Positions 5,097 through 59,322 are shown, counted from the stretch's first letter. The stretch is 64,000 nucleotides of DNA from Chloroflexi bacterium B3_Chlor (GCA_005223035.1 NJBK01000011.1:1-64000); one strand, 5' to 3'. A program made the numbers and translations. The notes: a model not told the origin generated them from the letters alone.

Positions 5097-5219
5097 GGAT
5101 ACAACGACTTGAATCATCTCTCGCTCTTCGACAGAGCCTGCGCTGCGCGCCATTTGGCAGTATAATCTAACCCCATCACCAGTAGGTCAGAGCCTCACAA
5201 CCAGATTGTTGCTGCGAAC

Positions 5220-6143: not shown

Positions 6144-6387
6144 TAGGCAGGGTGGTTTATGAGCCTCCTTTGCTCGCATTCAGGACAATTCCAGAGGCAT
6201 GTGTATCGGGCGGGATTTCCGGTCGTTCGCCTCTGGAGAACAGGGCTGATCGAGCAACGAATGGGCCATGTCACTGTCGAACGGAAGTTGTGCGTTTGAG
6301 CTTGTTGAGCCATAATCTTGGGTGGAATCGTTCATTAATTCCGCCGACAAGTGAGTTTGGCTGACCGACAGCGGAGGCAACGAAGGC

Positions 6388-8330: not shown

Positions 8331-9839
8331 ATGAGATGGTCGCTCATTTGTCGTATCGTGGTGCTCGTGATGGTGCTCGTGCTGGCCGCCTGTGCCGCGC
8401 AGGGGCAGGGTCCGATGACCTGGCTGGATCAACCCCTCGACGGCGCCACGCTTCCCCTAGAGCCGGTGACGGTTCAAGCTCATGCCTCCGATGCCGACGG
8501 CGTGGCCAGTATTGAGTTCTTCATTGACGAAACTTCCTTGACTACAGCCTCCGCCGATGGCGGCCGCCTGGCGGATGCTATGGTGGAATGGAACCCCACG
8601 GAACCCGGCCACTACACTGTACGCGCCAGGGCCACCGATAGCCAGGGCAACGTCGGCTCCGACGCCACCTCGGTGGTGACGGTCGGCCTGTTGCCAACGC
8701 CTTCGGCAACGGCACCCCCTGCGCCAGACGAGAGCGAGATGCTCTTCTTCGTGGAACCTGAAGCGATTCCCGTCGGTGGGTGCGCGATGCTGCATTGGCA
8801 GGTGTATCCTCCCGTAGACGCGCTCCTTGATGGAGAAGGGGTCCCATCTGAAGGCGAGAGGGAGGTGTGCCCAGAGACGACCAGAACCTACGAACTGCTT
8901 GTTCCCGAGACGGGCCACACGCGGACGGCAACGCTCCATGTCAAGCCGGCCCCTGAGATGGAGTTGGCGATCTTCTTCGCAGTAGACCCGGATGTGATCC
9001 CCGCTGGCGGATGCGCGATGTTGTTCTGGGAAGTGGGCGCTCCTGAGGAGTGGCGGGTGCTCATTGATGGCCAGGAGGCCCCGCACCTTGACGAGCGCGA
9101 GGAATGCCCTTCGCAGACCACCACCTACGAACTGCTGGTGGAAACACCTGACGGTCCCCAAGTGAGGACGGTAACGCTCCGCGTCGAGGCGGAGCCAGAG
9201 CCAACACCGCCGCCCGGATGTCCAGGCCCGCCGGTGATCTCCTCGTTTACCGCCAACCCGAGCACGATCACCGCTGGGCAGTCGAGCACGCTTAGCTGGG
9301 GTCGGGTAACGAACGGAAATAGCGACGTGTTGGTGCGCTCAGTAGTCATGAATCCTGGCCTTGGCGAAGTGGGATCGCCTGGCTCGCGCGTCGTCCAGCC
9401 TGCGACCACAACAACGTACACCATGATCGCCACGGGCTGTGGCGGCACGGCCCAGCAACAAGTGACCGTCACCGTGAGTCAGGCCCCCCCGCCGCCCTCT
9501 GGGGCAGACCTGGCTATTACCGACTTGCGTCCGCAAACGCCAGTCGGGCCGGTTTTGGGCGACATAACCAACCACGGCCCGGGCACTCTTACCAACGTGA
9601 CCGTTCAATTATCGTGCCAGTGGGTCGTAAGCGACCCGATCGAAGGCACCCAAGTTGACTCAGGCGCAACGGGGTCCATGCCTATCTCCATCTCCAACCT
9701 GAGCCCGGGTCAGACGCAGGCGTTCAACACGGACATCTCGGTTGATCCGAGCTACCGGTACGACGTGACATGCAGCGTACAGGTGGGCTTCAACGATCCC
9801 AATCTCGGCAATAACTCCTACTCCGAGTCGTTCCCGTAG
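8331..9839 (+). CDS. Exported lipoprotein with Ig-like repeats and a CARDB domain
   Basis: 502 residues from ATG 8331, placed by AGGAGGAAGGAC directly upstream. The signal ends in lipobox LVLAAC. Domains in order: a bacterial Ig-like unit (about 25-115), two homologous units of about 75 residues built on 'FF-V-P--IP-GGCAML-W' and ending 'TTTYELLV', a third related unit (FTANPSTITAGQSSTLSW), then a CARDB domain (ADLAITDLRPQTPVGPVLGD to the end). These are binding or spacer modules of surface proteins. It opens a run of four exported proteins and has no enzyme domain. A role as structural or scaffolding surface lipoprotein is inference. Confidence 0.78.
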   Translation: MRWSLICRIVVLVMVLVLAACAAQGQGPMTWLDQPLDGATLPLEPVTVQAHASDADGVASIEFFIDETSLTTASADGGRLADAMVEWNPTEPGHYTVRARATDSQGNVGSDATSVVTVGLLPTPSATAPPAPDESEMLFFVEPEAIPVGGCAMLHWQVYPPVDALLDGEGVPSEGEREVCPETTRTYELLVPETGHTRTATLHVKPAPEMELAIFFAVDPDVIPAGGCAMLFWEVGAPEEWRVLIDGQEAPHLDEREECPSQTTTYELLVETPDGPQVRTVTLRVEAEPEPTPPPGCPGPPVISSFTANPSTITAGQSSTLSWGRVTNGNSDVLVRSVVMNPGLGEVGSPGSRVVQPATTTTYTMIATGCGGTAQQQVTVTVSQAPPPPSGADLAITDLRPQTPVGPVLGDITNHGPGTLTNVTVQLSCQWVVSDPIEGTQVDSGATGSMPISISNLSPGQTQAFNTDISVDPSYRYDVTCSVQVGFNDPNLGNNSYSESFP

Positions 9840-9914
9840 TGGAATCCGATGGTACGCCTGGAAAACCCTACTCTTGCCACAAGTCATTCCTAACTCCAGT
9901 CAGAGAGGATGGCC

Positions 9915-12257: not shown

Positions 12258-12410
12258 GATTGGTGCGACCCTACTCGGGGAGGTGGTAACGACCATCTCT
12301 AGCAAGGACATTCTAAGAGGAAGGCCTTCGACTCGTTCGCCGATACAGGCTGAGAGCATGTTCGAGAACCGGCCTTCAGGCGGTTTGTGGCAGCGTGACG
12401 GAGGAGCGCT

Positions 12411-12549
12411 ATGAGAAGTAAAACGCGTTATATAAAGTGGTTAGTTGTTGCTCTGTCCTTAGTGGCCGTCTTCTTATTGGTCGGAATGTGTGGTTAGGCG
12501 TTTCTGTACACACGCCAACTCGACCAAGCTGGCGCGGCGTACGCTCCAT
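12411..12549 (+). pseudogene. Dead N-terminus of a second LysM-type gene
   Basis: ATG 12411 with GGAGGAG upstream opens MRSKTRYIKWLVVALSLVAV and reaches an in-frame TAG at 12495-12497. The same frame then continues AFLYTRQLDQAGAAY, almost identical to AFLYTRQLDQARAEF in the intact gene at 9915. Homology ends near 12549; the long C-terminal part is gone. This is a tandem paralogue that lost most of its body and gained a stop. The rest of the gap before 12776 holds nothing recognised. Confidence 0.8.
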
Positions 12550-12775
12550 CTTGTGAAGGGTTCCACGGGTTCTTCGGCCGGAGCAGACGCTCCTGGGAAA
12601 GGCGCAAGAACGTAGGCCAACTCCCACGTCTGTGGAGCCAAGCAACGGAGCATCCTGAGTAGGTACGGGCGCAGTAGAGAACCGTATCGAAGGCTGTTAC
12701 TCAACACGCGGCTCAGGATGCTTCGCACGGTTGGGTTTGGGAGGCGGCATTGCTCAGTCTGGAAGGGGGAGACCG

Positions 12776-15700
12776 ATGACCCACGCCCGTATACTTCGCG
12801 CAGTTCTGCTAGTTGCCATGTTGCTGGTGGTTGCCGCACTCGCTGTCCCCGCCTCCGGGCAGGAGACGGTCCTGACAGACACCTTCGACGACCCAGCCCT
12901 ACCCGATTGGGAGCACTCCCCTGGCGCGCAGGCTGTTGACGGAGTACTACGCATCGAGCCCGGCGGTTTCGCCTTCCACGGCGGCTTGTGGGCAGACTTG
13001 TCCCTTACTGTCCGTGCTCGGTACAGCGGTGAGGGAGAGTTGCTGGTTCAGTATCGTTGGAGCGACAGGGGAGAGTATGCCATCCGCCTTGGCGGTGACT
13101 TTGTGGCACTGCATCGCGTAGCGGGCGGCGTGCCGAGGGAATTGGGCGCGGCGCCAACCTCTGTTCCCTCCGGCGAATGGCTGCAGATCGGCGTCACCGT
13201 AGCTGGCGAGACGCACCGGGTGGCACTGAACGGCCAGCCGGTGTTGAGAGCCACCGATCCCGACCCTTTGCCGCCGGGCGGCGTCGGCTTCCGGGTCGAG
13301 GGCGAGGCGACGGGCGAGTTCGATGACCTTGTGTTGACCGTCGCCGCTGAGGCCCCACCTCCGGTTGAAGCCACTCCTATGCCTGAAGCGACCCCGGCGC
13401 CCGAGGCCTCACCCGCGATCGAAGCGTTGCCGACACCGGGAGTGATTTCACCCGGTGAGTTTACTTGGGTCCGCACGGGCGGTCCGCCCGGAGGCCTAGG
13501 CTACGACATCCGGTACAACTTCGACGATCCCAACATCTGGTACGTCACCGATAACTTTGCCGGCGTGCATGTCAGCACCGACAACGGCCTGACCTGGCAG
13601 CCGAGCAACACAGGCATTCCGGGCCAGGCCGGGCCCACCGGAGATGCCCTCCCGATCTTCTGCTTGACGGTGGACCCACACAACCCACAGATCGTTTGGG
13701 CCGGTACAGATTTGACAGGCCATATTTACAAATCGACCGATGGAGGGCGCACGTGGGTGGAGAAGGACGAGGGTGTGACCATCGAGTACGACGGCCTCAC
13801 GTTCCGTGGTTTCACCATTGATCCGCGAACCTCAGACATCGTTTATGCGATGGCTGAGACCACCAAGTTTGGCTGGGGTGATCAAGTCTTCGATCCTCGG
13901 GGCGGCGTTGTCCACAAGACGACGAACGGCGGCGAATCCTGGGAGGTGATCTGGGACGGTGGAATGCCCTCCAGCCTCGCCCGCTACCTGTGGATAGACC
14001 CACGGGACCCAGATGTGCTCTACGTCTCCACAGGTATCTTTGACCGTGGCGCGGTGGGTCAGGAGGACTTGGAGACCGATCCGTTCGGCGGGTTGGGGCT
14101 CCTAAAGTCCACCGATGGAGGGCAGACGTGGAGGATCCTCAACGAAGAGAATGGCCTCGGGATGCTTTACATCGGTAGCTTGTTCATGCACCCGGAAAAC
14201 CCTGACATCCTGCTGGCTGCAGCCGGCCACGTCGTCCCTGAGGTTCACTACGAACGTCTCTTCGCGGAGGGAAGAATCTCAGCAGGCATCTATCGCACGA
14301 CAGATGGAGGTGAGCATTGGACCCAGGTCTTGGCCTCGCCACCAGACCTTCTCCTTCAGGCCTATAGCTCTGTCGAGCTGTGCCCCTCCGATCCCAACAT
14401 CGCCTACGCGGGAAGCGAGATGGCTGTTTATCGCAGCGGGGATGCTGGCCAGACGTGGGAATTGGTTGCCGGAGGTGAGGGTGGTTGGGGGCCACCGGGT
14501 GTGCGTGCTGGTTGGCCGATCGACATGCAATGTGATCCGCGTGATGCCAACCGTGTCTTCGCCAACAACTACAGCGGCGGGAACTTCCTGAGCGAGGATG
14601 GGGGCCGGACCTGGCGAAACGCCAGCCAAGGCTACACGGGTGCACAGGTCATCCATGTTGGAGTAGATCCCTTCGATCCCGCGAAGGTCTACGCGGCCGG
14701 CCGCAGTGGCGGCTGGTACAGCGATGACGGGGGAACCTCCTGGCACGGCCTTCGTAACCCTGGGGAAGACAAAGCTGTGGCACCGGGAGAATGGCTGGCA
14801 GTCGCTCTCGACGCTTCTCGAGTCAACCACGTGTTGGTCGGCGGAGATGGTATTCTTGAATGGACCGAGGAGGAATCAAGATGGCAGACTCGAATTGTGC
14901 CGCCTCCCTTCGGTCCGACGGTGAGCGCGCTCGTGTTCGCACCTTCGGATCCAACCACTGTTTACGCGGGAGCGGGACATCATCTGACCATGATAAGTCC
15001 AGCGGTTGGGGAGATATTTGCCGCTGGCGGAGGATTGGCCGCTTCCCATGATGGAGGAACAACCTGGGAGAACATCACGCCGGAAGAACTCACAGACGCG
15101 ATCATTTTCGACCTGGCAGTAGATCCCACCGATCCTCAGATCGTGTATGCTGCCAGCCGGATTGGGTTGCTCAAAGCGACCGATGGAGGGCTGCATTGGA
15201 CGAGGGTGGCGCGTCTGCCCGAGCAGCAGCCAGTTCGTAGTGTAGCCGTGAGCCCGGCTGACTCGCGTTTTGTATTGGCAGGTGTCGAGGCGCAGGGGCT
15301 CCATCTAAGCACCGATGCTGGTGGGACATGGCAACACGTAGCTGCCGGGCTGGAGCCCAATGCTACAGTCTATGACATCGTCTTTGATCCCACGAATCCA
15401 GATGTGGTTTATGCCAGCGACCTGACCAGCGGAATGTATCGCTCTGTTGACGCCGGACTGACCTGGATCCAGATCAACACCGGTCTGACCACTCGCGCCG
15501 TGATGGGACTGTCAATATCCTCGGATGGCCAACACCTATACGTCGCCAGCAACGGCGCGGGCGTCTTCCGCCTGGATCTGGACGCCCAGCCGTCGCAGCC
15601 AGCATTGGAGGCGTCGCCAACCGTGCGCGTTGGTCCCGTTCTACCCGTCGGCACCCCATCGGAGGCCCAACCGACCGCGCCGCCCGAGGTGGTTCCCGTT

Positions 15701-15790
15701 CTCTGTGGAGGAGGTGGCATCTGCCCTGGGGCGGCCGCTCTGCCCGTGGCGCTGCTGGGCTTAGTCTGGGTCTCGCGTCGCAGGAAATGA
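12776..15790 (+). CDS. Exported Asp-box (sialidase/VPS10-like) propeller protein with LamG-like domain
   Basis: 1004 residues from ATG 12776 (GGGGGAG upstream; the frame runs back to 12731). A signal peptide ends near ASGQ, then comes a concanavalin-like jelly-roll domain (about 30-195), an Ala/Pro/Thr linker and a long propeller with about a dozen Asp-boxes (STDNGLTW, STDGGRTW, TTNGGESW, SEDGGRTW, SHDGGTTW, STDAGGTW). This pattern is that of BNR/sortilin-type ten-bladed propellers, which bind or cleave glycans or simply scaffold. No sialidase catalytic set is evident. The C-terminus is a Gly/Ala/Leu membrane segment ending VSRRRK, so the protein is anchored by its tail. The stop is followed four bases later by the cytochrome gene. 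Confidence 0.85.
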   Translation: MTHARILRAVLLVAMLLVVAALAVPASGQETVLTDTFDDPALPDWEHSPGAQAVDGVLRIEPGGFAFHGGLWADLSLTVRARYSGEGELLVQYRWSDRGEYAIRLGGDFVALHRVAGGVPRELGAAPTSVPSGEWLQIGVTVAGETHRVALNGQPVLRATDPDPLPPGGVGFRVEGEATGEFDDLVLTVAAEAPPPVEATPMPEATPAPEASPAIEALPTPGVISPGEFTWVRTGGPPGGLGYDIRYNFDDPNIWYVTDNFAGVHVSTDNGLTWQPSNTGIPGQAGPTGDALPIFCLTVDPHNPQIVWAGTDLTGHIYKSTDGGRTWVEKDEGVTIEYDGLTFRGFTIDPRTSDIVYAMAETTKFGWGDQVFDPRGGVVHKTTNGGESWEVIWDGGMPSSLARYLWIDPRDPDVLYVSTGIFDRGAVGQEDLETDPFGGLGLLKSTDGGQTWRILNEENGLGMLYIGSLFMHPENPDILLAAAGHVVPEVHYERLFAEGRISAGIYRTTDGGEHWTQVLASPPDLLLQAYSSVELCPSDPNIAYAGSEMAVYRSGDAGQTWELVAGGEGGWGPPGVRAGWPIDMQCDPRDANRVFANNYSGGNFLSEDGGRTWRNASQGYTGAQVIHVGVDPFDPAKVYAAGRSGGWYSDDGGTSWHGLRNPGEDKAVAPGEWLAVALDASRVNHVLVGGDGILEWTEEESRWQTRIVPPPFGPTVSALVFAPSDPTTVYAGAGHHLTMISPAVGEIFAAGGGLAASHDGGTTWENITPEELTDAIIFDLAVDPTDPQIVYAASRIGLLKATDGGLHWTRVARLPEQQPVRSVAVSPADSRFVLAGVEAQGLHLSTDAGGTWQHVAAGLEPNATVYDIVFDPTNPDVVYASDLTSGMYRSVDAGLTWIQINTGLTTRAVMGLSISSDGQHLYVASNGAGVFRLDLDAQPSQPALEASPTVRVGPVLPVGTPSEAQPTAPPEVVPVLCGGGGICPGAAALPVALLGLVWVSRRRK

Positions 15791-15794
15791 GCCT

Positions 15795-17510
15795 GTGAAG
15801 ATCAAGAGGCTGGTTGCTCGATCGGCGCTGGTCTGTTTGGGCATGCTGACTTGGGCTGCTTGTAGCACTCCTGTGCCCAGCCCCGCAGCCTTCCCACCGG
15901 CCGTTCAGTCTCCTCTGCCTTCGGACACGGTGTCGGGCGTGGTGCTCGACGATGACGGCCCGGTGGCTGGCGCTACCGTGCGCTTGCAAGCTACAGAAAA
16001 CAGTACAAAGACCGCCGCTGACGGTACCTTCACCTTGGCGGGTTTGAGCGAAGGCATCGCCGTGACCATCAGCGCCTGGAAGCACACCTACTACTGCGCC
16101 AAAGTCCAGGGGGTGGTACCTCCCGCCAGTGACATCGCTCTGACTCTGCGTCACTATCAGACCAACGACAACCCCGACTACATGTGGATACCCCCGACTG
16201 GCGACGACTCGTGCGCTAGTTGCAAGCCAGGGGTGACCGAAATCTGGCTGGAGAACGCCCACGCCGGATCTGCCAACAACCCTCGCTTCCTGACCATGTA
16301 CAATGGCACCGACATGGCTGGCAATCAGAGCCCGCCTACTCGCCGCGGCTACAGCCGCGACTATGGCTCCTTTCCTTTGCGGCCGGACCCCGACCAACCG
16401 TACTACGGCCCTGGCTACAAGCTGGACTTTCCTGACACGGCAGGCAACTGTGCGGCGTGCCATACGCCGGGGGCCGCTGTTGATGCCGCCTATGGCACCG
16501 ACCCGACTGCGGTCGCCGGTGCGGATACCTTTGGCGTGCACTGCGACTTCTGCCACAAGGTGGCCGATGTCCACGTGAACCCGGATACTGGGATGCCCTT
16601 CCCGAACATGCCCGGCGTCCTGTCAATGTATGTCCGACGGCCTTTTCCCGAAGATCCGGATCGCTACCAACTCTTCTTCGGCACGTTCGACGACGACAAC
16701 GTGCCCGAGGAAGACACCTATCTCCCTCTGCTCAGGACTAGCCAGTTCTGCGCGCCGTGCCACATTGGGGTGTTCTGGGACACTGTAATCTACAATTCGT
16801 TCGGTGAGTGGGTGGAAAGTCCCTACAGCGACCCCGACACCGGCCAGACCTGCCAGAACTGTCACATGCCCTCACCGGCTGTTCTGGACGGGGAGCCGAT
16901 GACCAACGTGGCGCCGCACGCCGGCGGTATCGAGCGCGACCCGCTGACCATCCACGGTCACACCCAGCCAGGCGCAATGGACGAGAAGTTGCTGCAAAAC
17001 GCGGTCACCATGACCGCCACCGCCCAGCTTGAGGGCGATACCGTTGTCGTGGAGGTGGAGATCACCAACGACCAGACCGGTCACCACGTCCCCACGGATA
17101 GCCCCCTGCGACACCTCATCCTGCTGGTACAGGCCACCGATGCCGGTGGCAACCAGTTGACGCAACTCGAAGGGCCGAGGGTGCCCGAGTGGGGCGGGAC
17201 CGGCGATCCAAACGAAGGATACTACGCTGGGCTGCCCGGCAAAGCCTTCGCCAAGGTGCTGGAGGAGCTGTGGACTGAGATCTCGCCGTCAGCGGCATAC
17301 TGGAACCCGACGCGCGTGCTGAGCGACAATCGCTTGGCCGCCTTGGCCACCGACACCAGCACCTACACCTTCGCCGCGCCGCGTGAGGGTGGTGCCATGG
17401 TGGAGGTCACACTTCTGTTCCGCCGAGCTTTCATCGAGTTGATGGATCAGAAGGGGTGGGATGTCCCGGACATCTTGATGGAGCAGCAGACGGTGCATCT
17501 GCGCCGCTAG
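15795..17510 (+). CDS. Multiheme cytochrome c lipoprotein with one CXXCK site
   Basis: 571 residues. GTG 15795 lies four bases after the previous stop, so the two are translationally coupled. Lipobox TWAAC (Cys 23), a carboxypeptidase-regulatory-like beta domain (about 45-118), then the heme region. Four CXXCH sites: CAACH 219, CDFCH 250, CAPCH 319, CQNCH 353. A fifth, CASCK at 140-144, has Lys in place of His. The C-terminal third (about 400-571) is a beta-rich domain with TGHHVPTDSPLRHL. Relatives move electrons at the cell surface or act as multiheme reductases; the donor and acceptor are not encoded here. A Lys-ligated heme marks the active site in NrfA nitrite reductase, but overall similarity to NrfA is not apparent. 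Confidence 0.85.
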   Translation: MKIKRLVARSALVCLGMLTWAACSTPVPSPAAFPPAVQSPLPSDTVSGVVLDDDGPVAGATVRLQATENSTKTAADGTFTLAGLSEGIAVTISAWKHTYYCAKVQGVVPPASDIALTLRHYQTNDNPDYMWIPPTGDDSCASCKPGVTEIWLENAHAGSANNPRFLTMYNGTDMAGNQSPPTRRGYSRDYGSFPLRPDPDQPYYGPGYKLDFPDTAGNCAACHTPGAAVDAAYGTDPTAVAGADTFGVHCDFCHKVADVHVNPDTGMPFPNMPGVLSMYVRRPFPEDPDRYQLFFGTFDDDNVPEEDTYLPLLRTSQFCAPCHIGVFWDTVIYNSFGEWVESPYSDPDTGQTCQNCHMPSPAVLDGEPMTNVAPHAGGIERDPLTIHGHTQPGAMDEKLLQNAVTMTATAQLEGDTVVVEVEITNDQTGHHVPTDSPLRHLILLVQATDAGGNQLTQLEGPRVPEWGGTGDPNEGYYAGLPGKAFAKVLEELWTEISPSAAYWNPTRVLSDNRLAALATDTSTYTFAAPREGGAMVEVTLLFRRAFIELMDQKGWDVPDILMEQQTVHLRR

Positions 17511-17750
17511 GACTGGCTCGGACGAGAAGGTCCCTTCATTGCCCTGAGAACCCGCGGGCCACTGTCAGAGGATCCTCGGGGCAGGGCCCATTCGATTCCC
17601 TAGTGGCGGCTCAGCTCAAGCCAGTTTGACGGTCCATGGATCGGCCCTGACCCACCTTGCACCCGCTGCGTACGGACACCAAGCCGTCGGTCATTTCGCC
17701 CTGAGGGGCTATGCTCCAGCTCTAGAATGCATGCCGAGGGCGGCTCGGCC

Positions 17751-17779
17751 TTGACACACGAGAAATCATCGGGTATAAT
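17751..17779 (+). promoter_or_regulatory. Consensus housekeeping promoter for the recombinase gene
   Basis: TTGACA (17751-17756), 17 bases, TATAAT (17774-17779): both hexamers match the sigma-70 consensus fully. Start of transcription is expected near 17786, giving a leader of about 67 bases. The remaining 17511-17750 gap holds nothing recognised. Confidence 0.85.
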
Positions 17780-17852
17780 TATTACGTATAAGGTGGCATT
17801 ATCTGTCATAATTGGCCTCTCAATGCAAGGATAGTAGCGTCGAGGAAGCGGC

Positions 17853-18761
17853 ATGTCGACGAGTGAAACCGAGTTGCAGGACACTCTAGCGGCATATGAG
17901 AAGTACTTGGTGGACTCGGGCTTGTCGCAAGTGACTATCACGGGCTATCTCGGTGATATCAAGCAGTTTGCCTCCTGGCTCGCCGGAGAGGGAAGGACCT
18001 CCCTGCTGGCAGGCACAAGTCAGGAGATTCGCCGCTACTGCCTGCAGCTTGTGATAGCGAAAGCCCATACTCCCGCCACTGTAAATCGGCGCCTGCAAGC
18101 TATTCGGAAGTTCTTCAGATTTGCCGTGCACACGGGGTTGGTGGATGAAGATGCCTCCTTGGGGATCAAGTTGCTGCCACAGCCGCCGTCGGAAGGGCCA
18201 CGAGGGCTTGATAGGTCGGAGGTAGAGCGCCTTCTCGATGCTGTGCGACGAGGGGCTCCTCGTCTCATGAAGAGAGACTATGCGATAGTGCAGCTCATGC
18301 TCCAGACAGGGATCCGCGTGGGGGAGCTGACCAAGCTCAAGCTGTGTGATATCTCGCTGTTCGAGGACAAGCGTGTTCTGAGGGTCCGTGGGCAAGAGGC
18401 TTCTCAAGGTCGGGAGATCCCCCTTAACAGCTCGGCTCGCAAAGCCTTGGGCGCCTACTTGGACGAGCGCGTTGGGTCAACCAACGATCACCTCTTTCTC
18501 AGCAGGAAGGGGGAGCCCCTATCCGTGCGCTCAGTGCAGAGATTGGTCAATACCTATGCTCAGGCGGCAGGTTTGGAGGACGTGTCCACGTACACCTTGC
18601 GGCAGACTTACGGTCAGCAGATGCTGAGGGACACTGGTGACCTATCCCTGGTGGCTAGGCTCATGGGCCACAAACGGCTGGAGACAGCCATCAAGTACAT
18701 TCTGCCGGGGCAGGAGGATTTGACGGAGATAGCCGAGAGGAGCTCCCTCAACGTCTACTAG
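17853..18761 (+). CDS. Tyrosine recombinase (XerC/D-like) with altered active site
   Basis: 302 residues, the usual Xer length, with an N-terminal SAM-like core-binding domain (about 5-100) and a catalytic domain. Catalytic positions: R155 in TGIRVGEL, R250 in TYTLRQTY, H273 in LMGHKRLETA and nucleophile Y282 in IKYI. The first His of the HxxR box is Tyr247, and the beta-hairpin RVRGQEASQGREIPL has no Lys. Xer enzymes resolve chromosome dimers or move cassettes by strand exchange at short att/dif sites. A GAGGAAG site precedes ATG 17853. The 3' end plus about 130 downstream bases are duplicated at 19851-20109. It could be a cassette integrase rather than a true Xer. Confidence 0.85.
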   Translation: MSTSETELQDTLAAYEKYLVDSGLSQVTITGYLGDIKQFASWLAGEGRTSLLAGTSQEIRRYCLQLVIAKAHTPATVNRRLQAIRKFFRFAVHTGLVDEDASLGIKLLPQPPSEGPRGLDRSEVERLLDAVRRGAPRLMKRDYAIVQLMLQTGIRVGELTKLKLCDISLFEDKRVLRVRGQEASQGREIPLNSSARKALGAYLDERVGSTNDHLFLSRKGEPLSVRSVQRLVNTYAQAAGLEDVSTYTLRQTYGQQMLRDTGDLSLVARLMGHKRLETAIKYILPGQEDLTEIAERSSLNVY

Positions 18762-50773: not shown

Positions 50774-50802
50774 TTGAGAGAATCCCGAGAGTTCGGTATA
50801 CT
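50774..50802 (+). promoter_or_regulatory. Promoter of the riboswitch-protease transcript
   Basis: TTGAGA (50774-50779), 17 bases, TATACT (50797-50802). Start near 50809, about 36 bases before the aptamer. The 50372-50773 stretch holds nothing else recognised. Confidence 0.72.
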
Positions 50803-50844
50803 AGGAGTGTCTCTGCAAGTCCTACCTTGACAATCAGACGGTGA

Positions 50845-50925
50845 GAAAGGCAAACCCATCGAAAGATGGGGACGCAAAGCCACGGGCCTGACGCTAAGAG
50901 CGTAGTATGGTAGCCGGGTTGCCTC
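50845..50925 (+). promoter_or_regulatory. Cyclic di-GMP-I (GEMM) riboswitch, upstream of the protease gene
   Basis: All conserved blocks are in order: GGCAAACC (50849-50856), hairpin CCCATC-GAAA-GATGGG with the GNRA loop, GACGCAAAGCC (50871-50881), a second hairpin (ACGC-TAAGA-GCGT), then GGTAGCCGGGTTGCC (50909-50923) closing on the 5' strand. This is the textbook class I aptamer, which binds c-di-GMP between its helices. The gene under control starts at 51077. An intrinsic terminator (50946-50993) follows and is the probable expression platform. Confidence 0.93.
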
Positions 50926-50945
50926 CGCACAATAGCTTGTTGACT

Positions 50946-50993
50946 AACGCGCGCTTCGAACCGGAGACCAGCTGGTGGAGGGCGCGTTTTCTT
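50946..50993 (+). terminator. Terminator-like hairpin after the riboswitch
   Basis: Stem AACGCGC / GCGCGTT around a loop that contains the small hairpin ACCAGCTGGT, followed by TTCTTG on the T-rich side (TTTTCTT in all). It lies between aptamer and coding region. Direct overlap with the aptamer is not seen, so the switching partner is unclear. Confidence 0.55.
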
Positions 50994-51076
50994 GTTCCTG
51001 ACAGGATCCGAAGACCCAGTGGCAGCGGGCGCGCTTTCTGGTGCCTTGAGATTCTTGGCGTAGACAAGGGTCTGGC

Positions 51077-52327
51077 ATGAAAACTAAGTTGGGTGTAGGC
51101 TCCGCGCTGTGCTTGTTGATGCTGGTGCTGTCCAGCACTAGGCTTGAGCTTCCCGTGCTCGCTAGCCTGCAAGGTGAAGGGCGCCAGGGGCGGGGCCAAG
51201 ATGTCCTTGGGGTATCGATCCTTCCTGCGCCTACCCCCTTGGTCGGCCCGGAGCCTGAGGGCTGGACGGCCGCTCAGACCTCGGTCTCCGTGCTCAGCCA
51301 GGAGGACAGGAGCGGGTTGTGCGGCGTACCACTGGCGGTCATCGAATGGGAGGAAGAACAGGCCAGCCAGCAACCACCCATGCTCTCCGCCAGCTACACC
51401 TATCCCCCCGCCCTGGATTGGCGCAACTATGGAGGCATGAATTGGACGACGCCGATCCGCCATCAGGGCAGCTGCGCTTCGTGCCCAGCCTTTGCCACGG
51501 TCGCGGCCATCGAATCCAGGCTGGAAATAGCCGAAGGCGACCCAGGCCTGAACCCCAACCTCTCGGAAGCTCACCTGTTCTATTGTGGGTGCGGAGCGTG
51601 CTGCGGCAGCGGCGCGGGCCCGATCTCGTTGATGGAGTTCGCTCGCGACACGGGGATCGCTGATGAAGGCTGCTTCCCCTATACGGCTCTGAACCAAGCG
51701 TGCAGTCCATGTCAGGGCTGGCAGAATCGGGTCACGAAGATCTCCGACTGGGCTGGCGTGACCGGCGTGGAAAACATGAAACAGACCCTGGCCGACGCCG
51801 GCCCCTTCGAGGCGAGCATGATCGTGTACAGTGACTTCTATGACTACTCAGGCGGGGTCTACAGGCACACCTATGGCAGCCTTGAGGGCGGCCATGCGGT
51901 GACAATTGTGGGCTACAACGACTACGGCGGGTACTGGATCGTCAAGAACAGCTGGGGCACAGGGTGGGGCGAGAACGGCTGGTTCAGGATAGCTTACGGG
52001 CAATGCTCCATCGACAATTATGCTTATGTACCCCTTGTGGCTGAGCCATCGTACCATGTGAGTGCCAGCGCCAGCCCCCACGAGGGTGGAGTGATAGCCG
52101 CCGAGCCGCCCGATTGTGTCAGCGATACCTGTGACCCAGAGACGGTAGTCGAGCTAGCCGCGGTGCCAAGCAATGGCTACGAATTCAGCGGCTGGAGCGG
52201 TGACGCCTCAGGATCCGAAAACCCCACCAGCATCGTGGTCGATACGAACAAGGACGTGACCGCTCACTTCATCTTTCGTTGCGACGAGTGCACGCCGCAG
52301 GCTTTCCTTCCTATCGTTATCCGATAG
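51077..52327 (+). CDS. Exported papain-like (C1) cysteine protease with C-terminal repeat domain
   Basis: 416 residues. Signal peptide, a pro-region to about residue 110, then the C1A catalytic domain beginning LDWRNYGGMNWTTPIRHQGS. Catalytic set Q130, C136, H273 (GGHAVTIVGY) and N291 (VKNSWGTGWGENGWF) is complete. The usual C-W pair is C136-Pro137 (ASCPAF). Four further cysteines (GCGACCGSG) sit after the active-site helix. About 70 residues at the end form an InlB/Listeria-type repeat (YEFSGWSGDASGSENPTSIV), an attachment or spacer module. Translation follows a c-di-GMP riboswitch. It converges on the repeat surface protein gene, itself under a c-di-GMP riboswitch; processing of that protein is an attractive but untested idea. 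Confidence 0.88.
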   Translation: MKTKLGVGSALCLLMLVLSSTRLELPVLASLQGEGRQGRGQDVLGVSILPAPTPLVGPEPEGWTAAQTSVSVLSQEDRSGLCGVPLAVIEWEEEQASQQPPMLSASYTYPPALDWRNYGGMNWTTPIRHQGSCASCPAFATVAAIESRLEIAEGDPGLNPNLSEAHLFYCGCGACCGSGAGPISLMEFARDTGIADEGCFPYTALNQACSPCQGWQNRVTKISDWAGVTGVENMKQTLADAGPFEASMIVYSDFYDYSGGVYRHTYGSLEGGHAVTIVGYNDYGGYWIVKNSWGTGWGENGWFRIAYGQCSIDNYAYVPLVAEPSYHVSASASPHEGGVIAAEPPDCVSDTCDPETVVELAAVPSNGYEFSGWSGDASGSENPTSIVVDTNKDVTAHFIFRCDECTPQAFLPIVIR

Positions 52328-52398
52328 AGCCTGGTTGGGGGAGTGTGCAACACCCGGCCCGGTGCATGCAACAGGGGACACAGTTGCGGTATCCTCAA

Positions 52399-52418
52399 GA
52401 GCCGACGAGAGTCGGCTC
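52399..52418. repeat. Hairpin after the protease gene
   Basis: Eight-pair stem GAGCCGAC / GTCGGCTC with GAGA tetraloop, no T run. Probably an mRNA 3' end stabiliser. Confidence 0.4.
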
Positions 52419-52442
52419 GCCTCCGGCCGCGCCAGACAAGGA

Positions 52443-52477
52443 GAAAGGGCCATCCCCTCAGAGGAGATGGCCCTTTC
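52443..52477. terminator. Shared bidirectional terminator
   Basis: Twelve-pair stem GAAAGGGCCATC / GATGGCCCTTTC with an 11-base loop, midway between the convergent stops at 52327 and 52500. The A/T ends of the stem give U-rich transcripts in both directions. Confidence 0.75.
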
Positions 52478-52499
52478 GTGTAGTGCCGGGACCTGTTGA

Positions 52500-55400
52500 C
52501 TACCGCTTCCGCAAGCGCATGCGGGCGTATGCAGCCAGCGGCGCAAAGCCGCTCGCCAGAAGCAGGATGGAGTCCCACTCAGGCACGAAGCCATTTCCTC
52601 CTGGTGGCTGTCCCAACGGCAGCTCGTCGTAGTCTGCGTCGGTAACCGTGCCCTCGCAGTCGTCGTCACCAGTGGCGGTGGCTTTGTTGATTATGTCGTC
52701 ACCATCAGCCTTACTGGTGGTGTGGACGTACGAGAAGCCGCGGTTGGCTCCGGGGGCCAGGTAACCGATAGACCAACTCTTGCGCGTACCGCTGTGAGGA
52801 AACTCCCACTTGTCAACCACCGTCACGTTGTTCAGCGGGGTGTCTGCGGAGCAGTTGGTCACCTGGATGAGATAGGTGATGCTGTCGCCCCAGAAGAACT
52901 TCCCGCCCGCGCGTTTCGATGGCAGGTGCGTCTTGGTCACGTCGATGCACGGGTGCAGTATCTCGACCACGTGCCCGTCGTCGTCATCCACCGTTCTGCC
53001 CAGTACATCAGTTCCTTCAACGGTAGCGGTGTTTGGCATTCTGTCCCCGCTGAAGACGCTGGGCACTGTGAACGGCTTATCGAAGCTGTACTCCTCGTCC
53101 ACAGCCAGGTCGCCCACCGTGTGCACCAGGTCTGGATCCCACAGCGGGTCCGTCACCGTCACGTCCTTGAGAGCGAAGTCGCTGCAGTTGCGCACCCAGA
53201 AGTGATAGGTGATTTCCTCACCTGGGTGGGCGCAGGAGTCTCCGGTCTTCTCGATCTCGATGCAGACGGGGGTCGCGGTGTTGACGAATGTGCAAGTCAC
53301 CGTCTCGCCAGGTTCCACGTCGATGTTGTTCACAGGGCTGCCATCGTCGCAGCTGGCGCTGGTCAGGTTCCACCCCGCCGGGGTGGTCGTCTCCGCCACA
53401 CTGTACCCAGACCCAGGCAAGAGGAGGCCGAAGCTTTGTGAGTCGCCGTCCTTCAGCGAGAAGCCAATCGAGCCCAACCCTCCCCCCGGTGTGAAGCCGA
53501 ACAAGGTGTACGAGAGATCGGGACTGGGGTCGGTCACCTTGCGGACGATGATGGAGCCTCGCTTGGTGTTGGTGAAGGTGCACTTCACTGTCTCCCCAGG
53601 CTCGACGTTGAAGGTGGCGGTCGCGGTCTGTGTGTTTCCAGAGCTGTTGGCGTCGTCGCAGACGATGCTGGTCAGATCCCAGCCAGCGGGCACGGACTCG
53701 GTCGATGAATACTGACCCGGGTCTACCTGAGCGCTGGCGGTATCACCGTCACCCAACGTGTCTGACACGTCACCTGTGAAGCTGAAGGTCGCAGGATCGC
53801 CATCGGGCAGAGTCTGCTTCTCCACGATGATGGTGCCGAGCTTGGTGTCGGTGAAGGTGCACTTCACCGTCTCCCCAGGCTCGACGTTGAAGGTGGCGCT
53901 CCCGGTCTGTGTGTTTCCAGAGCTGTTGGCGTCGTCGCAGAGGATGCTGGTCAGATCCCAACCCGTCGGCACGGACTCGGTCGATGAATACTGACCCGGG
54001 TCTACCTGAGCGCTGGCCGTATCACCGTCACCCAACGTGTCTGACACGTCACCTGTGAAGCTGAAGGTCGCAGGATCACCATCGGGCAGAGTCTGCTTCT
54101 CCACGATGATGGAGCCTCGCTTGGTGTCGGTGAAGGTGCACTTCACCGTCTCCGCAGGCTCGACGTTGAAGGTGGCGGTCGCGGTCTGTGTGTTTCCAGA
54201 GCTGTTGGCGTCGTCGCAGACGATGCTGGTCAGATCCCAGCCAGCGGGCACGGTCTCGGTCGACGTGTAGATCCCGGATGCCAGATTCGAGAGCACGACT
54301 TGCCCGCCGTCGGAGATAGTACCCGCGGCATCACCGGCGAAAGTGAAGGTCGCAGGATCGCCATCGGGCAGAGTCTGCTTCTCCACGATGATGGAGCCTC
54401 GCTTGGTGTCGGTGAAGGTGCACTTCACCGTCTCCCCAGGCTCGACGTTGAAGGTGGCGGTCGCGGTCTGTGTGTTTCCAGAGCTGTTGGCGTCGTCGCA
54501 GACGATGCTGGTCAGATCCCAGCCAGCGGGCACGGTCTCGGTCGACGCGTAGGTCCCGGATGCCAGATTCGAGACCACGATTTGGCCGCCGTCGGAGATT
54601 GTACCCGCGGCATCACCGGCGAAAGTGAAGGTCGCCGGATCACCACCCGGATTGGTCACCTTCTCGACGATGATGGTGCCGAGCTTGGTGTTGGTGATGG
54701 TGCAGACGATGTCGTCGCCGTTGTTCACCGTGACGTCGAGGGGACCAGCACCCGTCGTGCTCGCCACCTCGTTCTGCTGCGCGTCCACACAGGAGATGTC
54801 GATCTTGTAGTCATTGAGGTCCGTCCCGGTGTAGGCGCTCTCGCCCACCGTGTGGATGCCGGTGTATACTACCTTCTCCCCGGTGGTCCCGCCATCACCC
54901 ACCATCGCAGCCTCTACAGTGCCATCGATCAGCAGATTGAACAACCCCAGATCATTATCCGGCACTAGGTCCTTCACCACCTCCAACTTGCCCGTCGTGC
55001 GTATGTCATAGAACGTGCAGGTTACGTGCTGACCCTCGGCCAGGTCGATAGACGCCGTAGGTGGCGTCTGGCTGCTCTGGTCGTCGCACACGACGCTGTC
55101 GAGAGTCCAGCCCGTAGGGACCACCAACTCGGTCACACTGTATGTGCCAAAGTCTGTCAGGTCCACGAAGCTGATGGTGTTGGCAGAGGTCCCGTCATCG
55201 ATGAGGGTGAAGTCGGTAGTAGTCTGCTGGTCGGGCCACGTGAGGCTGAAGGGGAACTCGGTCAGGCCCTGTGGATCCGCTTCCTTCACAATGGTGATAG
55301 AGCCCGGGACGATGACGGCCCCAGCCTGCATCTGATTGTCCCGTTGTCCGATTGAGGCACCGTCGAACTCGATGAGTTTCATGTGGTAGGGAGCACCCGA

Positions 55401-56063
55401 GATCGAAACGGCCGAGTTGCCTGTGCCCCAATCAAGCTGGCTAGCAATGTGCGAGCCCCAGATCACAAGGACTTCGGACTCTCCGGCACCGACTGTGAAG
55501 GTGATCTGGATACTGGTGTTGCTGTCGCCTGTGTACGGCCCCAGGAGAGTATAGCCAGACACGCCCGTGATGTCACCGTTGTACATGGTGAAGTATTGGT
55601 CATTGGGCTGTATGCCCCCAGGAATGTTGGCGTCTGGCGGGATCAGGTGATAATCTGCCGTCCAGCCCGTGCACCCGGAGATACCGGAGCAGAAGTCGGC
55701 GAGGGTGATCCAGTCCTCAGACCAGTCCCAGCTGGTCAGGTAGTCGAAGGCGTGCTTTCCTGCCTTCGTGGTTTGCCACTCCACCGTGATGGTGTGAGTA
55801 CCCGGGTCCAGACCATCGAGGTGGAGCCGATGGACTACCGCATCACCTTCAGTGTATGTGGAGTTGTTAGGCTGGATCGCCCCATTTGTCCAATTACAGG
55901 TGCCCGTGGGACCACCTTCTCCGTCGTCGTTCGCGCACTGGTTGTAGATGTTGACGTCGCCGGCAAACACCACCTGCAAGCCGACCATCAGCAACAAGAA
56001 CAGCAACCCTGCAGCGATCAGTGGCGGAAGCCCAATGGGCAGAAGTCTTCTCGTCGGTCTCAT
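52500..56063 (-). CDS. Giant surface protein with SpaA/Cna_B-like tandem repeats and tail anchor
   Basis: 1187 residues, AAAGGAG before ATG 56063. Signal peptide (PPLIAAGLLFLLLMVGLQVV), an N-terminal domain (35-255) with several Cys, two SpaA-like units, then near-identical units of 93-94 residues (GTIIVEKQTLPDGDPATFSF to VKCTFTDTKR), about four in a row, a fifth variant unit, and two DUF11-like units (about 945-1140). The C-terminus GNGFVPEWDSILLLASGFAP then AAYARMRLRKR looks like a PEP-CTERM-type sorting signal with PEW for PEP. Such proteins build stalks and adhesins at the cell surface. A c-di-GMP riboswitch in its leader links it to attachment or biofilm life. Confidence 0.88.
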   Translation of the reverse strand: MRPTRRLLPIGLPPLIAAGLLFLLLMVGLQVVFAGDVNIYNQCANDDGEGGPTGTCNWTNGAIQPNNSTYTEGDAVVHRLHLDGLDPGTHTITVEWQTTKAGKHAFDYLTSWDWSEDWITLADFCSGISGCTGWTADYHLIPPDANIPGGIQPNDQYFTMYNGDITGVSGYTLLGPYTGDSNTSIQITFTVGAGESEVLVIWGSHIASQLDWGTGNSAVSISGAPYHMKLIEFDGASIGQRDNQMQAGAVIVPGSITIVKEADPQGLTEFPFSLTWPDQQTTTDFTLIDDGTSANTISFVDLTDFGTYSVTELVVPTGWTLDSVVCDDQSSQTPPTASIDLAEGQHVTCTFYDIRTTGKLEVVKDLVPDNDLGLFNLLIDGTVEAAMVGDGGTTGEKVVYTGIHTVGESAYTGTDLNDYKIDISCVDAQQNEVASTTGAGPLDVTVNNGDDIVCTITNTKLGTIIVEKVTNPGGDPATFTFAGDAAGTISDGGQIVVSNLASGTYASTETVPAGWDLTSIVCDDANSSGNTQTATATFNVEPGETVKCTFTDTKRGSIIVEKQTLPDGDPATFTFAGDAAGTISDGGQVVLSNLASGIYTSTETVPAGWDLTSIVCDDANSSGNTQTATATFNVEPAETVKCTFTDTKRGSIIVEKQTLPDGDPATFSFTGDVSDTLGDGDTASAQVDPGQYSSTESVPTGWDLTSILCDDANSSGNTQTGSATFNVEPGETVKCTFTDTKLGTIIVEKQTLPDGDPATFSFTGDVSDTLGDGDTASAQVDPGQYSSTESVPAGWDLTSIVCDDANSSGNTQTATATFNVEPGETVKCTFTNTKRGSIIVRKVTDPSPDLSYTLFGFTPGGGLGSIGFSLKDGDSQSFGLLLPGSGYSVAETTTPAGWNLTSASCDDGSPVNNIDVEPGETVTCTFVNTATPVCIEIEKTGDSCAHPGEEITYHFWVRNCSDFALKDVTVTDPLWDPDLVHTVGDLAVDEEYSFDKPFTVPSVFSGDRMPNTATVEGTDVLGRTVDDDDGHVVEILHPCIDVTKTHLPSKRAGGKFFWGDSITYLIQVTNCSADTPLNNVTVVDKWEFPHSGTRKSWSIGYLAPGANRGFSYVHTTSKADGDDIINKATATGDDDCEGTVTDADYDELPLGQPPGGNGFVPEWDSILLLASGFAPLAAYARMRLRKR

Positions 56064-56266
56064 ATTCTTGTCTCCTTTGTGATGTTGTGTTGCCCTCGCC
56101 TACACGGCAGCGAGAGCCAATCTTCTAATACGGAATTGTGCATTGAGTCCACCTCCCTACCATAAGGTATCGTTTTTTTAGCGACCCTTTGCCGCTGTTT
56201 CTGTCGGTCTGCGCCCAGTGCGGAGTAGAATGAACCGAGATCCACAGCAGGCCGTCGCACAGACAC

Positions 56267-56304
56267 AAAAAGCCGGGCTACCGAAATCCTTCGGCAGCCC
56301 GGCT
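56267..56304 (-). terminator. Terminator that overlaps the riboswitch P1 strand
   Basis: On the minus strand AGCCGGGCTGCCGAA pairs with TTCGGTAGCCCGGCT (one mismatch) and is followed by TTTTT. The left arm is the 3' strand of the aptamer P1 (56293-56300), so aptamer folding and termination exclude each other. Confidence 0.85.
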
Positions 56305-56379
56305 ATCCTGATACGGCAACAACCCGTACGTCGGACCCTCAAGCTTTGCGCCCATCCTCACCATTGAGGGAAGGTTGCC
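56293..56379 (-). promoter_or_regulatory. Cyclic di-GMP-I type (GEMM) riboswitch, upstream of the surface protein gene
   Basis: On the minus strand: GGCAACC (56379-56373), a hairpin (CCTCA-ATGG-TGAGG), GGGCGCAAAGCTTGAGGG, a second hairpin TACGG-GTTGTTG-CCGTA, then GGATAGCCGGGCTGCC closing on the 5' strand. The GCGCAAAGC and TAGCCGGG blocks are the ligand-binding core. Because the terminator at 56267-56304 takes the same P1 strand, ligand binding should prevent termination and turn expression on. The ATG of the gene lies about 230 bases downstream. It could be a 3',3'-cGAMP-preferring variant of the same class. Confidence 0.87.
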
Positions 56380-56456
56380 ATTGTCGGGATTTCCTGCTAT
56401 GGAATGCCGGTGAGTGTCTGGACGGATACCTTCTAGACAGATCACCAGCCGAAACG

Positions 56457-56485
56457 AAAAAACCGGCCACTGCTCGTAGCCGGTT
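56457..56485 (-). terminator. Second intrinsic terminator, further upstream in the same leader
   Basis: On the minus strand AACCGGC / GCCGGTT (seven pairs, 11-base loop) followed by a run of six T. It lies 78 bases before the aptamer and about 325 bases after the promoter at 56818. It may end an independent small RNA or belong to a second switch. Confidence 0.75.
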
Positions 56486-56811
56486 GCACCACTGGCTCCT
56501 CGCCGCTCAGGTGCCCAATCTTGAGCGACGCCTCATCGCCTCCACTGCGCCATAAGAAAGCAAGTTATCAAGTTGTCAATGGGGACGCCGTTTCCTCATC
56601 TCTCCACAAATACGACGTCGGGCTTCAACGCTTTAGTGCTCTCCATGGCTCGGGCTTCATAAGGTCTCGATGCCTACCACCTCTACACCTTCCCGGTCAT
56701 CGAGCAGAGTTCTTAGTTCCTGAGCGCAAAGGAGATGCCTACAAAGCACAAACGTCCGACGCTTTTCCGAATTGCGTCCCTCCCCTACCGGGTTAGCTGG
56801 CGAGAAGAGTG
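56486..56811 (-). ncRNA. Unassigned leader or small RNA region
   Basis: About 325 transcribed but non-coding bases, bounded by a promoter and a terminator with T6. They hold repeated GAAGCCCGA blocks (two on the minus strand) and a full TTGACA at about 56575 that could be a second promoter. No Rfam-type family is recognised; 5S rRNA and GEMM were considered and do not fit. Called only because both ends are defined. Confidence 0.35.
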
Positions 56812-56817
56812 ATTTCC

Positions 56818-56847
56818 ATTATACACAGCTGGCTATGCTGCTGTCTA
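56818..56847 (-). promoter_or_regulatory. Promoter of the surface protein leader
   Basis: On the minus strand TAGACA (56847-56842), 18 bases, TATAAT (56823-56818). It would give a leader of about 750 bases. Confidence 0.65.
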
Positions 56848-57587: not shown

Positions 57588-57974
57588 CTACGCTGCACAT
57601 GTAGCCCGGGTCAAGCCGACGCGCCGGAGCAGGGCCCATAGCTGGGCCGTGAAGACTCCCCTTGTGAAAGGCTGCAGGATATGCGCATCCGCCCCGGCAG
57701 CCAGCGCGCGCTCCACGGCAGAGTCATGCTCCCTTTTTCCCACGGCGAGCAAGGGAACAAGGGTGCGCTCGCACACGTCCCTGCACAGTTCTTCACCCCA
57801 GTTGCCTGTCGGGCCCACAGCCAGGACGACAGCGTGTGGAGGGTCATTGTGAAGCTGACGCAAAGCGTCCTCCCTGTTCCAAACGACGGAGGCTGCCATC
57901 TTCTCCGCCTCCAGCGCCCTGGTGACACTGTCGGCCATCTGCTTGTCGGGATCTATCACCAGTATTCTAATCAC
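57588..57974 (-). CDS. Degenerate stand-alone receiver domain
   Basis: 128 residues from GTG 57974 (AGGGAG upstream; the frame runs back to 58193 across the next gene's end). VIRILVIDPDKQMADSVTRA is the start of a CheY-like receiver and keeps the acidic pair region. The phospho-acceptor strand reads HAVVLAVGPTGNWGEEL, without Asp, and the Lys of the KP motif is Gln (HILQPF). It should not be phosphorylated in the usual way. It may be a pseudo-receiver that binds a partner, or decaying. It is related to the broken regulator just downstream. Confidence 0.65.
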   Translation of the reverse strand: MIRILVIDPDKQMADSVTRALEAEKMAASVVWNREDALRQLHNDPPHAVVLAVGPTGNWGEELCRDVCERTLVPLLAVGKREHDSAVERALAAGADAHILQPFTRGVFTAQLWALLRRVGLTRATCAA

Positions 57975-58104
57975 TGAATCATCTCCCTCTCGTCCTCGGA
58001 AGTGGATTTCCCTGGTGCCTCCGCCTCCAGCTTTGCGGCTTGCAGCGCCCCTCGATTCGCTCCCTCGGCGTCGATCGAAGCCTCCTACGGAAAGGCGGTC
58101 GTCG

Positions 58105-59322
58105 CTAACCCTGTTTGATAACGAGCGGACAGAAATTCCGATATCCTTCAGGTTCGCCAGGTTCCTTGAAGCCGAAGTCCGCCGTGCTGGCATGCGGTCC
58201 GTCAGCGTTCAGCAGGAACCCATACTCGAGTTCCGTTAGCGGAGAGTTGCAGGCTCCCAGGTCTTCGTCCGAGCTATCCACCGCGACCACATAGCACAAC
58301 TCAGTCGTGGATCCCGGTGGCCCGGTGTTCAGGTCTGTGAAAAAGTACTCGCCGTCGCCGAACGTCTGCGTTGTCGCCAAGAGGACATCCTCCTGGTCGT
58401 CGCAGTTGGGATCATCGTACAGCCAGACGGTGATATTTGCCATCCCCTCCCCGGGGTCATAAGCGTCGTTGCCATCGAAGTCGCACCAGACTCGGTCGCC
58501 GATGGAGCCGTCCACGTACAATCCCATGTCCTCGTCGTAATCATCGGCGCCCAGGATGATGCTCTCGATGCGAGCCGTGTCCTGCGCAGCGTCCGAGTCT
58601 ACGGTGTCGTCGCCACCCTGGTTCTGCAGGGTGATCTCCCTGCTGATAGGGATACTGTGGAACTCCATGCAGTAGTCGCCGGGATCCAGGCCGGTGAAGA
58701 CATAGGTCCCGGTTATGTCAGTAGTGTAGCTGTAGAGCAGTGTGCCCGTGCAGGTGGGGGTCGCATACAACTGTACTTCTATGGCCTCGACCCCAGGCTC
58801 ACCCGCGTCCTGAATGCCGTCCTGATCGGTGTCATACCACACCAAGTCGCCCAGTTCATACGATGGGCAGAACCATCCGTTTAGAGTGTGCTCTTCAACG
58901 GACAGGATGTGGGCTCCGTTTCTGTTCACCCATTGACCGTCTTCGAAGAACTGCTTCTTCCAGGTTCCTTCCACAGCGGTGGTGATGGCTGTGGTTGGGT
59001 CAAAGCCACCAACCTCTTCGTTTGCCTCGAGATATCCAAAATCGATGACTTCTTCCCCCAGGTGGAGTTTAAGCCGCCAGTCTCCGGCCACGTCGCCGTT
59101 TGTGGCTCTGAGCCTGAAGGTGCTAGTCCCCTGCACAAGACACGATTCCACCGTGAGCCTGGGATTGACTTTGGCCATCCCGCTCGAGTGAGTCGGCGTA
59201 ACCCAGACCGCTACGGCCAGTAGAGTTAGCACAGCCAGTGAAAAAGCTAGAGTCCAGACTCGTCGATCCACATTATCTCCTGTCTTGTGAGCTAGTCTCT
59301 CAACATATACTACCTTGTCCAT
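58105..59322 (-). CDS. Exported protein with two SdrD_B (Cna_B-like) domains
   Basis: 405 residues. A membrane segment at about 25-42 (LAFSLAVLTLLAVAVWV) acts as signal or anchor. A first domain (50-170) is unknown; then two SdrD_B units with Asp-rich calcium loops: LGDLVWYDTDQDGIQDAGEP (about 182) and IGDRVWCDFDGNDAYDPGEG (about 287). Such units are rigid stalk modules of surface proteins. The end, GYRNFCPLVIKQG, resembles the FLPIVIR tail of the protease. ATG 59322 lacks a good ribosome site. Confidence 0.8.
   Translation of the reverse strand: MDKVVYVERLAHKTGDNVDRRVWTLAFSLAVLTLLAVAVWVTPTHSSGMAKVNPRLTVESCLVQGTSTFRLRATNGDVAGDWRLKLHLGEEVIDFGYLEANEEVGGFDPTTAITTAVEGTWKKQFFEDGQWVNRNGAHILSVEEHTLNGWFCPSYELGDLVWYDTDQDGIQDAGEPGVEAIEVQLYATPTCTGTLLYSYTTDITGTYVFTGLDPGDYCMEFHSIPISREITLQNQGGDDTVDSDAAQDTARIESIILGADDYDEDMGLYVDGSIGDRVWCDFDGNDAYDPGEGMANITVWLYDDPNCDDQEDVLLATTQTFGDGEYFFTDLNTGPPGSTTELCYVVAVDSSDEDLGACNSPLTELEYGFLLNADGPHASTADFGFKEPGEPEGYRNFCPLVIKQG

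Follow-up and report, generated by a model that had tools for sequence, protein, structure and literature searches.

Convergent surface-protein and secreted-protease genes with c-di-GMP riboswitches of two classes in a Chloroflexota genome

Introduction

A pair of convergent genes in a 64-kb window (the whole stretch of DNA analyzed, 64,000 nucleotides) raises the question of whether bacterial attachment and release could be governed by c-di-GMP through RNA, and in which sense each gene would then be switched. The original prediction had placed class I aptamers before an exported papain-like protease and a tandem-repeat surface protein and had proposed an attach-and-release pair, a reading that fits the data given below. 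It left the polarity of the switches out of account, and the terminator layouts differ between the two leaders. The host is an uncultured bacterium of the phylum Chloroflexota. Relatives included Chloroflexota bacterium CSMAG_2365 (G003), which belongs to another genus of the same family (f1), and, at a greater distance within the same class, an Anaerolineae genome; the host order was sampled by nine genomes, and several of the genomes compared are fragmented.

Results

Riboswitches and genes at the locus

The window was searched by cmscan with Rfam 15, which returned three c-di-GMP riboswitch aptamers, all at the protease/surface-protein locus (Table 1). Both predicted sites, at 50845-50925 before the protease and at 56293-56379 on the minus strand before the 1187-residue protein, scored above the gathering score of the class I covariance model (RF01051; gathering 35), at 77.5 bits (span 50839-50926) and 36.3 bits, respectively. 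The predicted inventory was right for these two class I sites but had overlooked a class II aptamer at 56470-56552 on the minus strand (RF01786; 60.5 bits). With all three Rfam matches above gathering score, the sequence evidence upheld riboswitch control of both genes, and the c-di-GMP riboswitches are almost certainly real. An RF01051 search of the source genome (85% complete) gave two class I sites only, both at the locus. Elsewhere in that genome a weak partial class II match (L004, G000:C33:5791-5845) was recorded at 35.2 bits, below the cut-off. Four GGDEF proteins are encoded in the source genome.

The genes face each other, as predicted, across a probable two-way terminator, a strong hairpin at 52443-52477 between both stop codons. 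The ends of the interval originally marked out, 50774 and 56847, coincide with two promoter-like sites. By its sequence, the locus is a convergent pair of genes for a surface protein and a secreted protease, with riboswitches of c-di-GMP ahead of both. We infer that the receiver-protein gene upstream of the surface-protein leader is tied to the module. Upstream of it, an SdrD_B-domain protein was noted (window 58105-59322, minus strand); as listed, its open reading frame and that of the receiver protein share 89 nt, which makes a misplaced start in one of them probable.

Table 1. Positions of features in the window and of comparable loci in other Chloroflexota genomes.
Feature	Position	Strand	Evidence or remark
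Promoter-like site of protease transcript, TTGAGA-17-TATACT	50774..50802	+	Consensus match only; both hexamers kept in G003
Class I c-di-GMP aptamer before protease	50840..50927	+	Rfam; strongly conserved in G003
Intrinsic terminator of protease leader, apart from aptamer (OFF-type layout)	50946..50988	+	G003 counterpart +21..+59
Exported C1 (papain-family) cysteine protease, 416 aa	51077..52327	+	ORF and Pfam
Probable two-way terminator, hairpin between convergent genes	52443..52477	both	z -5.2 and -5.3
Surface protein, 1187 aa	52500..56063	-	ORF and Pfam; tail aligned with G003 PEP-CTERM protein
Class I switch terminator, 5' arm = aptamer 3' strand (ON layout)	56271..56304	-	Aptamer/terminator folds
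Class I c-di-GMP aptamer, second in tandem	56290..56389	-	RF01051, 36.3 bits vs 35; conserved in four loci
Class II switch terminator, 5' arm = aptamer 3' strand (ON layout)	56461..56485	-	Same in four loci
Class II c-di-GMP aptamer, first in tandem	56470..56552	-	RF01786, 60.5 bits, gathering 53.5; conserved in four loci
Promoter-like site upstream of tandem, TAGACA-18-TATAAT	56818..56847	-	Consensus match only
Receiver protein (response regulator), upstream of surface-protein leader	57588..58193	-	Pfam; counterpart in G003 by synteny
Builder/remover locus	L144 (G394:C2:1152000-1171000) 2770-14952		Class II operon vs class I pectate-lyase-like
Builder/remover locus	L145 (G436:C341:29000-48900) 2716-17894		Class II operon vs class I pectate-lyase-like
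Facing pair	L143 (G210:C1:384000-400000) 4011-10631		Class II surface-type protein vs class I exported protein

Two riboswitch classes in series before the surface-protein gene

In the surface-protein leader, two complete riboswitches follow each other ahead of a single gene, and each has a terminator to itself. The class II aptamer lies 80 nt upstream of the class I aptamer and about 270 nt downstream of the promoter-like site, although a nearer transcription start is possible. Four such hybrid tandems, class II followed by class I, were found in three genera of the host family: one in the window, one in G003 and two in G002. The gene that follows encodes a response regulator at one of the G002 tandems and an exported protein of 350 aa at the other. 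From this arrangement the response regulator in G002 itself seems to be under a hybrid switch. The two G002 tandems were seen to stand in series (L085, G002:C14:40000-58000, 10844-12245). In 80 other class-II-bearing Chloroflexota genomes, no hybrid tandem was found among the matches listed (to about E 1e-7; coordinates compared by eye).

In all four tandems the 3' strand of each aptamer doubles as the 5' arm of the terminator that belongs to it. Because the terminators reuse the aptamer 3' strands, both tandem switches should be ON switches, and the surface protein is very probably made at high c-di-GMP. The terminator would form when ligand is absent, and the aptamer would prevail when it is bound. 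Aptamer-terminator coupling as strong as that in the window was obtained in 2 of 200 shuffles for the class II switch and in 0 of 200 for the class I switch. Covariation was sought in the class I terminator of the tandem across the four sequences, and one-sided changes only were found, with no compensatory changes.

The window score of the class I aptamer, 36.3 bits against a 35-bit cut-off, would suit a decayed, non-binding relic that leaves the class II switch to work alone. This is improbable: core and terminator are strongly conserved in the four loci, the corresponding sites in relatives scored 43.4, 49.1 and 61.1 bits, and the GGCAA and CGCAAAG core motifs, present in both class I aptamers of the window, are retained. 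A published survey of tandem riboswitches reports many class I doublets as well as class II doublets, and mixed-class tandems for a single ligand with SAM only (PMC9481103). The II-to-I tandem for a single ligand is absent from that survey and is new relative to the open-licence papers searched. It offers a natural test of why one ligand should be read with two unrelated RNA folds in series.

The surface protein

The surface protein comprises a signal peptide, an N-terminal domain, SpaA-type (prealbumin-like) repeats, DUF7507 repeats and a PEP-CTERM-like tail; seven SpaA_4 and two DUF7507 stretches were returned by a Pfam scan of the 1187 aa. An adhesin role is one that we infer from the repeat type only. 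The tail, FVPEWDSILLLASGFAPLAAYARMRLRKR, resembles PEP-CTERM tails, but the protein gave no match to the PEP-CTERM model TIGR02595 (NCBIfam) up to E 0.1; similar tails on G003 and G002 proteins do pass the PEP-CTERM model. An exosortase (PF09721) is encoded once in each of the family-f1 genomes G000 (the source), G002 and G003.

The protease and its class I leader

The protease contains a C1 domain at about 110-319 (Peptidase_C1, E 2.5e-46) and a C-terminal InlB-type repeat at about 331-398. Its catalytic-site motifs are intact, with homology to solved cathepsins, and by these sequence features it is a member of the papain family (C1). Homology to LapG found no support, as the Pfam scan gives Peptidase_C1 only, and membership in the PPEP-1 metalloprotease family was rejected on the same domain match.

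The protease aptamer also matched RF03167 (c-di-GMP-I-GGC) at 50840-50927 on the plus strand (70.9 bits, gathering 59, E 8.6e-15). At the position of the G in the -GGC consensus (CGCGAAG) it carries A (CGCAAAG), which we read as a canonical class I pocket. The -GGC label was set aside and the aptamer was classed as ordinary class I because the RF01051 score is higher and the usual A is present.

Polarity of the protease switch

The surface-protein switches show a clear ON layout, whereas the protease switch has the usual OFF layout, with its terminator separate from the aptamer at +19..+62 in the window and +21..+59 in G003. An antiterminator in the protease leader of the window was sought with nascent folds, coupling energies and duplex tests, and nothing above shuffles was found; antiterminator complementarity at the window and G003 protease sites gave p 0.89 and 0.85. 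Taken jointly, 21 separate-terminator sites in the phylum show complementarity between the 3' strand of the aptamer and the 5' arm of the terminator, with a Stouffer z of -5.0, a value that is approximate because the sites are not all independent. Such complementarity, which an antiterminator requires, is taken as a signature of antitermination. The window and G003 protease sites add nothing to this 21-site signal. One example of it is an unrelated C1 protease in G031 with a class I leader and a separate terminator. Also in G031, at L091 (G031:C170, 716-3590), a class I aptamer precedes an 864-aa protein in which chagasin-type protease inhibitor, C1 protease, cohesin and dockerin domains are combined.

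In G005, a gas-vesicle cluster (L154, G005:C103:70100-73842), whose GvpN scored 341.9 bits against a cut-off of 266.8, is preceded by a leader that is homologous to that of the protease in both aptamer and terminator. Control of this cluster by the homologous leader fits repression at high c-di-GMP. In L154 the leader seems, by eye, to be followed by another class I-like copy that is degenerate.

Both genes might instead be ON at high c-di-GMP, the protease being a biofilm enzyme produced together with the surface protein, which it would mature or remodel, or else one that breaks down a biofilm polymer, and not a release factor. The failure to find an antiterminator at the protease leader speaks for this, as do small exported trypsin-like proteins (by eye) behind class I leaders of ON layout in other Chloroflexota (L176, L223, L225). 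It is nevertheless unlikely, since the protease terminator does not overlap its aptamer, unlike that of every ON-layout leader of the host family, the separate-terminator leaders of the phylum carry the antitermination signature, and the homologous leader heads the G005 gas-vesicle cluster. OFF polarity of the protease switch at high c-di-GMP is no more than fairly likely, as no antiterminator was detectable at the window or G003 sites.

Conservation of the locus in relatives

In G003, contig C139 carries an HTH gene, a class I aptamer, the protease and the C-terminal part of the facing surface protein, and contig C62 starts with the N-terminal part of the surface protein, followed by class I and class II aptamers and a response regulator. 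The ends of the two contigs overlap exactly over 141 nt, and the locus was therefore read as one uninterrupted piece, which is syntenic with the window and includes all three aptamers. The protease, compared between window and G003, gave dN 0.26 and dS 1.27, or dN/dS of about 0.2. The G003 surface protein (650 aa) aligns with the window protein in its C-terminal part only, at 40%, and the linker ahead of the tail is not conserved by eye. Judged by this alignment, the surface proteins of the two genera have stalk and anchor in common and differ at the tip.

Linkage of the pair in relatives was borne out in part. The convergent pair is kept in the second genus, G003, but protease homologues of family f4, 58-61% identical, have neither a riboswitch nor a facing surface-protein partner. 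They were discarded as further examples of the pair for want of a riboswitch, and the pair is, as far as sampled, specific to the host family because riboswitch and partner are both missing from the f4 homologues.

These homologues also bear on the target of the protease. It could be inversely regulated yet act elsewhere, on a protein of the host or the environment, on surface proteins other than this one or on the matrix, with the facing surface protein a co-regulated neighbor. That close protease homologues exist without the surface protein, and that the N-terminal parts of the surface proteins differ between the two genera, would agree with such a target. In two genera, however, the pair has remained linked along with all three switches, and the C. 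difficile protease described below does cleave the product of its neighbor; we regard an unrelated target as rather improbable and retain the surface protein as the candidate substrate.

Related arrangements in other Chloroflexota

Both G394 and G436 have a class II-led operon that is faced by an exported protein of the beta-helix, pectate-lyase-like kind under a class I leader. The operon begins with a bacterial sugar transferase and looks like one for exopolysaccharide synthesis; these loci have the same builder/remover layout, with polysaccharide in place of protein. In G210, a 558-aa class II-led protein with an anchor-like tail faces a 417-aa class I-led exported protein with no Pfam match. 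Because it is drawn from three loci, of which two belong to the same family, the pattern of class II builder and class I remover is a lead and not a law.

Other c-di-GMP leaders were observed in the phylum. Tandem class I aptamers stand before a RuvB-like ORF (by eye) in L178 (G034), L196 (G423) and L206 (G273); a RuvB-like ORF is an unexpected c-di-GMP target. In G005, c-di-GMP-II-GAG variant aptamers lie upstream of exported proteins (L094 7212-7299 and L096 7066-7173), and the ORF next to the variant aptamer of L094 resembles, by eye, a small trypsin-type protein.

Discussion

Proposed mechanism

At high c-di-GMP, both tandem aptamers would be bound, both terminators suppressed and the surface protein made; the need for two independent antiterminations would give low leak and a steeper response. 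Its PEP-CTERM-like tail would anchor the protein, with the single exosortase as the probable enzyme, and the anchored protein would serve in adhesion or as part of the matrix. If the protease switch is OFF, its leader would terminate under the same conditions. At low c-di-GMP, the surface protein would be off, and the protease leader would read through so that protease is secreted. The protease would then shed the surface protein or related matrix, and cells would detach as c-di-GMP falls. Confidence is highest for the ON polarity of the surface protein and decreases through PEP-CTERM anchoring and the adhesin role, then the opposite sense of the protease, to shedding. Shedding is proposed because the genes are adjacent, the pair is conserved and there is a precedent; by analogy with that precedent, the protease may cleave the surface protein directly, with chances somewhat short of even. 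For a c-di-GMP-controlled attach-and-release module acting through RNA and not through a protein receptor, we judge the chances to be evenly balanced.

Comparison with known systems

In Pseudomonas, the LapG cysteine protease, held by the protein sensor LapD, releases the LapA adhesin when c-di-GMP falls. The Chloroflexota locus resembles this system in pairing a cysteine protease with a putative adhesin and in the release at falling c-di-GMP proposed for it. LapG/LapA, the comparison drawn in the original prediction, is not the nearest one: LapG is a cysteine protease of another family under the LapD sensor, whereas the protease of the locus matched Peptidase_C1 only, with no LapG-type match in the Pfam scan, and would be controlled by RNA.

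Other systems resemble single parts of the locus. In Bacillus thuringiensis, the Bc2 class I riboswitch is an ON switch before the collagen adhesion protein Cap, like the predicted class I c-di-GMP ON switch before the surface protein described here; the accounts of Bc2 consulted give a single aptamer and mention no facing protease (PMC6366702, PMC4933901). Class I doublets and triplets have been described, as have class II doublets that precede surface-anchor genes in Paraclostridium and its relatives (PMC9481103). Like the Chloroflexota tandem, these place two full switches for the same ligand one after the other ahead of a surface-protein gene, and a steeper response is expected of them, but they are of one class, whereas the two switches of the Chloroflexota tandem come from unrelated structural classes.

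The original prediction knew of no description of such a pair, but a direct precedent exists in C. difficile, where a class I OFF switch controls PPEP-1/ZmpI (CD2830) and class II ON switches control the two proteins that this protease cleaves, CD2831 and CD3246 (PMC6366702, PMC11477304, PMC6447587). In both systems a secreted protease and a surface protein are encoded by adjacent genes (CD2830/CD2831 in C. difficile) with a c-di-GMP riboswitch on each. PPEP-1 is a zinc metalloprotease that acts at Pro-Pro sites near a sortase anchor, whereas the Chloroflexota locus has a C1 cysteine protease, a PEP-CTERM-like tail and an exosortase; the C. difficile adhesin has a class II switch alone, whereas the Chloroflexota surface protein has class II plus class I; and OFF polarity of the protease and cleavage, shown in C. 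difficile, are predicted for Chloroflexota. The module is likened to PPEP-1/CD2831 because the proposed logic matches, and set apart from it because protease family, phylum and likely anchoring differ. Taken by analogy, it would work like PPEP-1/CD2831 yet is outside that family, and the pair looks like an independently evolved version of the C. difficile stick-and-release circuit.

The full picture is put forward tentatively, as somewhat less likely than not: an independent RNA-only circuit far from C. difficile, with a C1 protease under a class I OFF switch facing an exosortase-anchored adhesin under a hybrid II-to-I ON switch, an undescribed two-class gate, and with class II builder and class I remover recurring with exopolysaccharide operons and pectate-lyase-like enzymes. 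If the module works as proposed, a general solution to surface detachment would be suggested for bacteria without a LapD-type receptor, a molecular handle would be gained on attachment in Chloroflexota known from metagenomes only, and riboswitch-governed adhesin release, as in C. difficile, would have arisen at least twice, with unrelated proteases.
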